A stretch of 38,044 bases of DNA, from positions 1-38,044 of the forward strand of contig LBYO01000016.1 in NCBI GenBank assembly GCA_000996205.1, read 5' to 3'. Positions within the stretch are counted from its first letter, which is position 1. Each line of letters opens with the position of its first letter. The position numbers and the translations under genes are program-made. The notes beneath the pieces were generated by a model. The model worked only from the letters and a program-made list of their open reading frames with translations, was not told where the DNA came from and made no database searches. This DNA is from Parcubacteria group bacterium GW2011_GWA1_40_21 (GTDB lineage: Bacteria; Patescibacteriota; Minisyncoccia; Phycocordibacterales; GWA1-40-21). Below are positions 661-32,470 of this stretch, piece after piece.

Positions 661-808
661 TACTTTGAATTACGAAACTGTATATATTCTTATGTCGTCA
701 TTGCGAGCGAAGCGTGGCAATCTATGGTTACACGCGATAAACTCTGGATTGCCACGCCGGAGTACCGACTCGCAAAGACGGAAAATGAGGGTTTCGTAAT
801 TCAAAGTA
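661..808. repeat. family B palindromic element, copy 1
   Basis: Perfect 18-bp terminal inverted repeat TACTTTGAATTACGAAAC/GTTTCGTAATTCAAAGTA; interior (ATTGCGAGCGAAGCGTGGCAATCT...GATTGCCACG...CTCGCAAAGACG) recurs at 26022-26161. Confidence 0.85.
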
Positions 809-3854: not shown

Positions 3855-3957
3855 CCCCGAATTACGAAATGCAAAAATTCAGGTCCTCGGGTCGCAAAAG
3901 CTATTTGTTTTTAAATGTTTTTGCTCAACCAGACCTGAATTTTTGCATTTCGTATTA
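3855..3957. repeat. family A long-hairpin element, copy 1
   Basis: CCCCGAATTACGAAATGCAAAAATTCAGGTC...GACCTGAATTTTTGCATTTCGTA; near-identical copies at 24752-24852 (inverted) and 32362-32470. Confidence 0.9.
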
Positions 3958-4686
3958 CGCCTTTTTGTTCCGTGTCTGTCTCAAATACAACTCTTGGCCT
4001 ATTGCAAACAAGTTGCTTGTCGTCCAATATAATGCCACGACTGACGGCAGGCCTCTCGCTATGAAAAATATAATGACCGGCAGGATATATTTCATTTGAA
4101 TGCTCATACTTTTTGCCAAATCGTCCTTAAACGAACTCTGGTTCGAATTTATGTTGGTTTTTTTGATTTTAGGCATAGCGAATTTAACCTGAAAAAATTG
4201 GGTTATGGCGGCCAAAAAAGCTATGGCATAGCTTTTTTGAGTTATGTCCAAAAGACCGAGGAATGAAATATCTATTGATGACGGAGCTTTAATAAAAGAG
4301 TAGAGTAAGTCGGTTTTTATTTCCGGCAACCCTCCTTTCAAAAACACGAAATACAAAGCAAAAATAATAGGAATTTGAATAAATATGAGCAGTATTCCGG
4401 AAAATGGGTTAATTTTCCTTTCTTTGTATAAAGCCATTACCTTCAAGGCTTGCTCTTGTTTGTTTTCTTTGTATTTTTCTTTTATGGCATCTAGCTCCGG
4501 CTGAATCTCCTTCATCCTGATCTGCGTCAGCACGGACTTCTTGGAAAGAGGAAAGAGTACTAGCTTCACAACGCAAGTAAACAATATAACCACAATTCCG
4601 ACATCAGCCCAAGGAAGGGCGCCTATCAAAAAAACCAAACCATTATACAAAGGATCGTAGAAAAACAAATTGAATAAATAGGACAT
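3955..4686 (-). CDS. yidC: membrane protein insertase YidC/Oxa1 family
   Basis: Characteristic motifs ...VVKLVLFPLSKKSVLTQIRMKEIQPELDAIKEKYK...; adjacent to rnpA/rpmH. Confidence 0.95.
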   Translation of the reverse strand: MSYLFNLFFYDPLYNGLVFLIGALPWADVGIVVILFTCVVKLVLFPLSKKSVLTQIRMKEIQPELDAIKEKYKENKQEQALKVMALYKERKINPFSGILLIFIQIPIIFALYFVFLKGGLPEIKTDLLYSFIKAPSSIDISFLGLLDITQKSYAIAFLAAITQFFQVKFAMPKIKKTNINSNQSSFKDDLAKSMSIQMKYILPVIIFFIARGLPSVVALYWTTSNLFAIGQELYLRQTRNKKA

Positions 4687-20877: not shown

Positions 20878-20928
20878 AACTTGGAAACCCAACTTGGAAA
20901 CTGAGTTTCCAAGTTGGGTTTCCAAGTT
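20878..20928. repeat. perfect 24-bp hairpin with 3-nt loop built from a tandem 13-mer
   Basis: AACTTGGAAACCCAACTTGGAAAC-TGA-GTTTCCAAGTTGGGTTTCCAAGTT. Confidence 0.9.
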
Positions 20929-24696: not shown

Positions 24697-24751
24697 TTTT
24701 AGAACACCTAGTAAAATCCACCCTTTCATTTTTTCAGTTTAAATGTACTTT

Positions 24752-24852
24752 GAATTACGAAATGCAAAAATTTATGGTCTGGTCGAGCAAAAACATTTAA
24801 AAACGAGCAGATTTTGCGACCCGAGGACCTAAATTTTTGCATTTCGTAATTC
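24752..24852. repeat. family A long-hairpin element, copy 2 (inverted relative to copies 1 and 3)
   Basis: GAATTACGAAATGCAAAAATTTATGGTCTGG...CCTAAATTTTTGCATTTCGTAATTC. Confidence 0.9.
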
Positions 24853-24908
24853 ATAGGTATTATTTGTCCAGATTATTTTTTTATTTGTTTTTTTGAAAGG
24901 AGGAAAGA

Positions 24909-26021: not shown

Positions 26022-26161
26022 ACTTTGAATTACCAAACCACATATATTCTTACACCATCACTGCGAGCGAAGCGCGGAAGTCTATGATCATGCGCGACAA
26101 ACTCTGGATTGCCGCGTCGGAATACCGACTCGCAAAGACGGAAAACGGGGGTTTGTAATTC
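26022..26161. repeat. family B palindromic element, copy 2
   Basis: ACTTTGAATTACCAAACC...GGGTTTGTAATTC with the same interior as 661-808. Confidence 0.85.
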
Positions 26162-26247
26162 AGGGTTTTTAAGTTGAATTTTTTCTAATTCGTGTTATAT
26201 TTTGCAGACTGCAATAAAGTTGTTGCAATTTTTCTTTGGAGAAGCGC

Positions 26248-32361: not shown

Positions 32362-32470
32362 CCCCGAATTACGAAATGCAAAAATTCAGGTCCTCGGGCC
32401 GCAAAAGTTGTTTATCTCTAAATGTTTTTGCTCAACCAGACCTGAATTTTTTGCATTTCGTAATTTGGGG
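32362..32470. repeat. family A long-hairpin element, copy 3
   Basis: CCCCGAATTACGAAATGCAAAAATTCAGGTCCTCGGGCCGC...GACCTGAATTTTTTGCATTTCGTAATTTGGGG. Confidence 0.92.

Follow-up and report, generated by a model that had tools for sequence, protein, structure and literature searches.

The short hairpin elements dispersed through the window, i.e., the whole 38,044-nucleotide stretch analyzed here, belong to a family (family A) that is very probably a composite MITE, in which the terminal inverted repeats of an IS982-family insertion sequence flank a core palindrome. The core and the IS982 ends are shown to be separable, since the core occurs elsewhere without these ends. Judging from the sequences, an IS982-type transposase most likely moves the family A copies. 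An earlier note on the window had read them as a non-autonomous mobile family, which we retain, with the revision that the interior now appears as a palindrome in its own right, with a wide distribution. The window forms contig C16 of G000, a reduced genome of 761 kb that is taken to be patescibacterial and is represented by a 26-contig draft, 97.7% complete.

The features located in the window are listed in Table 1. All three copies of family A lie where the earlier note had placed them in the 38 kb, each folds into one long hairpin as it had proposed (RNA fold z-scores of -9.0, -9.0, and -10.1), and no ORF of ≥100 aa is present within any of them, in keeping with the absence of an ORF that it had reported. 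A 20-mer from the arms (AATTACGAAATGCAAAAATT) has six matches in the window, compared to 0.10 expected from shuffles, and copy 1 shares 99 nt with the copy at C10:12892 at 100% identity. The single TIR given earlier proved to be two end types, CCCC in copies 1 and 3 and CTTTG/CTATG in copy 2, and the right end of copy 1 is degraded. An Rfam 15 scan of the window at the gathering threshold returned tRNAs only and no model at family A. Elsewhere in the window, positions 20878 to 20928 form a perfect inverted repeat of 25 nt (AACTTGGAAACCCAACTTGGAAACT; spacer of 1 nt) that is unrelated to both MITE families found there.

Table 1. Positions of family A, its core, its target duplications, and a second MITE family in the window
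Feature	Position	Strand	Remarks
Family A, copy 1	3855..3962 (given with 5-nt ends)	+	CCCC-type left end; right end degraded (GTATTACG)
Core palindrome of copy 1	3883..3934	+	GTCCTCGGGTCG...CTCAACCAGAC
Family A, copy 2	24748..24856	-	Ends CTATG/CAAAG-type (CTTTG/CTATG-type)
Family A, copy 3	32362..32470	+	Complete, CCCC...GGGG
Left target duplication of copy 3, TAAGAA	32356..32361	+	From the sequence
Right target duplication of copy 3, TAAGAA	32471..32476	+	From the sequence
Second MITE family, copy 1	663..806	+	Ends CTTTGAATTACGAAAC...GTTTCGTAATTCAAAG; interior unrelated to family A
Second MITE family, copy 2	26023..26165	+	Diverged, 83% over aligned 138 nt

Beyond the three copies in the window, the whole-genome search that had been suggested as a check enlarged the family to 34 copies in G000, and the same pattern read backwards, as a control, gave none. 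The sister species G001, of the same genus, has at least 44 full copies, counted in stretches around copies. The elements are 108 to 118 bp long, below the 300-bp limit for MITEs, and have no transposase ORF; some are diverged (~85% identity) or have eroded ends, and near-identical copies sit at different places. By crude gene calls, the context of the copies is tandem in 22 cases, convergent in 9, and divergent in 0 in G000, with corresponding values of 33, 5, and 6 in G001. The placement between convergent genes that the earlier note had remarked on is real for copies 1 and 3 in the window, copy 2 lying between co-directional genes, but it is not a rule of the family. In G001, an end of either type, CTTTG or C[AG]TG, can stand on either flank of the asymmetric interior, which looks as though it had turned around between the arms. 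Two copies (L062:1501-1618 and L153:6037-6154) have the apical loop swapped for a small palindrome, TCCGTCGGCTGACGGA. A solitary arm in the sister species (L131:7786) was considered as an insertion sequence end and dropped, as it looks like a truncated family A copy.

Target duplications were assessed by comparing left and right flanks beyond the 5-nt ends, with the right flanks shuffled among copies in 500 shuffles. For family A in G000, agreement over 7 bp was 0.58, compared to 0.40 in the shuffles (standard deviation of 0.027; maximum of the 500, 0.487), and it dropped to ~0.2 immediately outside the 7 bp; in G001, agreement was 0.53 to 0.57 for 6 to 7 bp. A perfect duplication is kept by only a minority of the copies. 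Comparison of the two species gave discordant spacers in both directions, indicating gains or losses of copies after the two species diverged: window copy 1 and copy C7:13719 of G000 are missing from the orthologous spacers of G001, copies C87:5046 and C62:11711 of G001 are missing from those of G000, and the site of the G001 copy C46:2435 is clean and empty in G000. That the copies are instead old, immobile repeats fixed at common positions in all relatives has almost no chance of being correct, given these spacers, the clean empty site, and the near-identical copies at different places, although the diverged copies and eroded ends would suit it. The comparison with relatives that, by the earlier note, could have refuted mobility revealed differing insertion sites and empty sites, against fixation.

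The end of family A is ~16 to 18 bp long and is either CTTTGAATTACGAAAC or of the CCCC type. An IS982 end would be expected to start with AC and to have a T at position 9. In family A, the base A stands before the C in 56 to 77% of the ends, mostly inside the 7-bp duplication in perfect cases, and when this A is counted the end has a T at position 9. The same 16- to 18-bp end bounds transposase elements in many Parcubacteria, eight of which were compared, among them the frameshifted one of G001. They are 936 to 1037 bp long; in seven, the longest ORF is 265 to 277 aa and D, D, and E are conserved. Three of the eight have perfect 7-bp duplications (TATCAGA, TAATAAA, and TATAATA). The 267-aa transposase of the element in L182 (Magasanikbacteria) scores 102.6 bits with Pfam DDE_Tnp_1_3 and 129.3 bits with the IS982 model NF033520, just below the cut-off of 130; the element of G029 reaches 182.7 bits, above the IS982 cut-off, and its end, CCCGAATTACGAAATT, is of the CCCC type, the other end type of family A. 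Counting against the composite reading, besides the scarcity of perfect duplications among family A copies, are two observations that leave present activity doubtful. No IS982 gene was found in G000, a 97.7% complete draft in which an absence is not final, and the one IS982 gene of G001 inside these ends is frameshifted (longest ORF of 244 aa, E region broken); such ends were not found near the second IS982 gene of G001. The autonomous partner that the earlier note had asked for was located in relatives, as DDE elements with the same ends, and neither in G000 nor, intact, in G001.

The earlier designation as a “REP/MITE” family stands in its second half, given the target duplications, the orthologous sites that are empty, and the DDE partner bounded by matching ends, and is not supported in its first. 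Hairpins that are REP/REPIN elements moved by a RAYT (Y1) transposase would likewise be dispersed intergenic palindromes, and the window's genome has two Y1_Tnp (RAYT-like) ORFs, of 233 and 255 aa. To our knowledge, however, a Y1 transposase makes no target duplications, whereas those of family A span 7 bp with sharp edges; the tetranucleotide GTAG is at the hairpin base in none of the 34 copies, no copy lies at either Y1/RAYT-like gene of this genome, and ends identical to those of family A bound DDE elements. Family A thus differs from REP/REPIN elements in hairpin base, target duplication, class of partner, and link to RAYT genes, and a REP/RAYT origin of family A is highly improbable and was rejected on the duplications, the lack of GTAG, and the positions of the Y1 genes. 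One of the Y1/RAYT-like genes (G000:C9, L067, L163) has a copy of the second MITE family slightly more than 100 bp away, and none was seen at the other.

Several unrelated short families share the end of family A. In the second MITE family of the window, copy 1 has TAAATA on both sides (657 to 662 and 807 to 812). At least five further MITE families, 34 to 241 bp long and seen in stretches around copies, combine IS982-type ends with unrelated interiors; 7-bp flank agreement in these other same-end families is 0.68, compared to 0.45 when shuffled, with 11 of 26 perfect. Several of their interiors resemble widespread dispersed repeats (GTCATTGCGAGCGAAGCGTGGCAATC; GTCATTCCCGCGCAGGCG). The exact 18-mer ACTTTGAATTACGAAACT was found in at least 116 stretches of genome contigs, and most of the named records are Parcubacteria lineages. 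Facing pairs of the 18-mer occur in 60 of those stretches, at lengths that cluster at ~106 to 170 bp and 977 to 1036 bp, the longer class being insertion sequences. For the 59 phylum-wide end pairs with usable flanks, agreement over 7 bp is 0.66 versus 0.43 (standard deviation of 0.019), and 24 are perfect. The exact 18-bp end is also in L271 (JAUYPG010000055.1), a contig binned as Nanoarchaeota, where mis-binning or transfer may account for it, and viral contigs gave 32 scattered matches to the 16-mer end.

Among 78 aligned copies of family A, the asymmetric interior (GTCCTCGGGTCGCAAAA / TTTTTGCTCAACCAGAC) is conserved as much as the arms, and the apical loop is variable. On the RNAalifold consensus structure, 95.7% of the arm cells pair and two-sided changes are present in 13 of 23 pairs; two-sided cells number 119 (shuffles, 39; slid controls, 26 or fewer), and on the modeled strand G-U intermediates outnumber A-C intermediates, 38 to 20. 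A covariance model of family A found matches in 20 of 397 genomes of the order. The full element is also present in two further taxonomic families (G204/G260; G231) but is absent from most of the window's own family, giving a patchy distribution. Weaker matches of the model have the interior alone in common with family A, and their arms are different.

This interior contains the core palindrome, GTCCTCGG[A/G]TC N6-36 CCAGAC, which is present in 35 of the 397 genomes, in 18 genera of the order (0 for the backward control). When a stricter pattern was applied to 380 genomes sampled across the phylum, matches were confined to the window's order. Viral contigs had no match to the core. The core occurs in either orientation, on unrelated yet complementary arms, without the ends of family A. 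It has two forms, ...GGGTCG-stem-CTCAACCAGAC and ...GG[AG]TCTCC-stem-GGCCAGAC, and stand-alone hairpins are ~80 to 135 nt long; within one genome the core is often identical, and the outer arms vary by locus with complementarity kept. In Rfam 15, the hairpins at 15 stand-alone loci (E up to 5) match only microRNA precursors, weakly and far below gathering. A literature search, mostly outside subscription papers, found no work pairing palindromic elements with Patescibacteria. The core is apparently an undescribed palindrome, absent from Rfam and from the literature searched.

Orthologous sites of the core can be compared between G005 and G002, which are species of the same genus. At three loci the core is missing from the orthologous site and no earlier hairpin is there, so that the arms at these loci were made or brought along. 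At a fourth, an intrinsic terminator (AAAAACCACCC...GGGTGGTTTTTT) has the core placed precisely in its loop, and the other species has this terminator in plain form. Two sites are common to both species: one has compensating arm changes, and at the other the core is shortened in G002 and the arms of the hairpin there are almost wholly different yet complementary. Filled and empty orthologous sites, together with this turnover of the arms, indicate that the core comes and goes and that complementarity is kept or remade.

The core also lies within genes. About 20 copies are inside open frames of >150 aa, some of which may be spurious, and at least 15 are in frame in recognizable conserved genes (10 scanned with Pfam, the others named by eye). 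The hosts are UvrA, UvrD (twice), IleRS, LeuRS, a NifS-like enzyme, TsaD, RecG, RecJ, Tgt, MnmA, alanine racemase, ribulose-phosphate epimerase, and ParB (twice). The UvrA insertion adds 31 residues, placed precisely between positions 160 and 161 of PDB 2r6f. Tgt (L436) has an extra segment at the core; the same protein has a second in-frame insertion at residues 109 to 146, 38 aa of different sequence that is also hairpin-folding. The UvrD site varies within one genus. The stretch between TFTNKAA and STFH is 105 nt long in most genomes and is extended by 75 to 108 nt, always a multiple of 3, in the four that have the core hairpin; in seven others, one of two core-unrelated palindromes is inserted there in frame (L444, L446, L449, and L469; L445, L467, and L468). 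The net insertions are smaller than the folded spans, which include flanking pairs. As read off the sequences, arm differences between L440 and L441 are present on both arms; the empty alleles, the comparison for native arm sequence, are strongly diverged from the filled ones. L456 looks like a deletion remnant at this site.

Conservation of pairing raises the alternative that the hairpin is a host-selected structure, such as a terminator, an RNase III-type processing site, or another 3'-UTR element, the spread as a MITE being secondary. Two-sided changes in the arms, complementarity on other arms despite turnover of their sequence, and the excess of G-U over A-C intermediates would all be expected under it, as would some of the neighbors of stand-alone copies, identified by eye: nusG/rplK, tuf/rpsJ, trmD/rpoB, and smpB, with a tmRNA placed by Rfam beside the smpB copy. 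A tRNA cluster is a further neighbor named by eye. For the 69 of 70 core copies with neighbors on both sides (crude ORF calls), the neighbors are co-directional in 49 cases, divergent in 10, and convergent in 10. The orientation of the core relative to co-directional neighbors is even (24 versus 25), and this and the genic copies argue against a role bound to one transcribed strand. Copies within coding sequence and copies missing at orthologous sites in sister species also do not fit, and template switching that corrects palindromes can likewise yield covariation. We consider host selection of the structure unlikely as the primary explanation, although the hairpin may have a part in RNA processing.

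Somewhat less likely still, in our judgment, is that family A is simply an IS982 MITE of the ordinary sort whose interior is neutral, the copies of that interior elsewhere being decayed MITEs whose ends were lost or replaced. MITE interiors are often arbitrary, as the other families with the same end illustrate, and full family A elements in other taxonomic families of the order indicate that transfer happens. Neutral decay, however, would destroy complementarity, whereas stand-alone copies have long, perfect, locus-specific arms; neutrality also does not account for a core conserved as much as the arms beside a variable apical loop, for in-frame copies of two core forms in 18 genera, or for the present spread of the core without IS982 ends.

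On the composite reading that we prefer, an IS982 DDE transposase would act in trans on the 16- to 18-bp ends of family A, and the element would insert into AT-rich spacers via a 7-bp staggered cut. With the IS982 source lost or unassembled in the window's genome, the copies there would be orphaned. The core would be a selfish palindrome, working like the Rickettsia palindromic elements, that became flanked by a pair of IS982 ends and owed its later amplification to them; it may have entered an existing IS982 palindrome or have been acquired together with the ends in a single step. Its arms may be pre-existing, as in the terminator case, may be copied from the flank, or may arrive with the core and change in step. 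A bolder proposal, which is speculative and less likely than not, is that the core is a palindromic parasite of Patescibacteria, of a new class, that settles in inverted-repeat loops or copies flank into arms by fold-back or template switching, and that it manufactures new MITE families wherever it lands beside or between IS982 ends. The terminator-loop insertion and the arm turnover at the shared G005/G002 site count for it, and, if true, it would explain both the locus-specific complementary arms and the one end common to many MITE families.

On the composite reading, the very small genomes of Patescibacteria carry layered selfish DNA, with IS982 mini-transposons in many lineages and a core palindrome that sits in frame within genes for replication, repair, and translation. 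The origin of such insertions, and the means by which their hosts tolerate them, became a question with the Rickettsia palindromic elements; the core would be their counterpart in a second phylum of reduced bacteria. Sister species have filled, empty, and differently filled alleles, all three of them at UvrD, so that how the arms arose and how insertion proceeds can be tested directly, and the conserved 16- to 18-bp end could serve as an easy probe in surveys of Parcubacteria for IS982 elements and MITEs.

Elements of the IS982 family are ~1 kb long, with one DDE ORF, direct repeats of 2 to 10 bp, and imperfect ends of 16 to 18 bp, 57 of 69 elements starting with AC; neither Patescibacteria nor MITEs appear in the text of the review (PMC7335449). 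The Parcubacteria elements match in size, DDE ORF, and end length, and their 7-bp duplication is within the 2- to 10-bp range; they are set apart by a distinctive common end, (A)CTTTGAATTACGAAAC. The MITE layer is ordinary in kind, because IS982 MITEs are already known from Cardinium, where MITECca01 and MITECca02 derive from ISCca4, a member of the family (PMC9769881). Like family A, these are short, without an ORF, bounded by IS982 ends, and multicopy in a reduced genome, but they are ~240 bp long and keep some ISCca4 sequence by the left end (PMC9769881), compared to 108 to 110 bp for family A. The interior of family A is not derived from the insertion sequence and is instead a palindrome found elsewhere, and its host genome has no intact partner.

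The Correia elements, or NEMIS, of Neisseria are long-hairpin MITEs of ~100 to 150 bp, near genes and in many copies, that are processed by RNase III (PMC10969869). Family A resembles them in length, long hairpin, proximity to genes, and copy number; their ends and transposase class are different. The Rickettsia palindromic elements, ~100 to 150 bp long and of several families, lie in frame in conserved genes in many cases and are also intergenic (PMC10969869). By description, the core is like them in its palindromic form, its size, and its combination of in-frame and intergenic copies, and it differs in being a short conserved core on locus-specific arms and in belonging to a different phylum.
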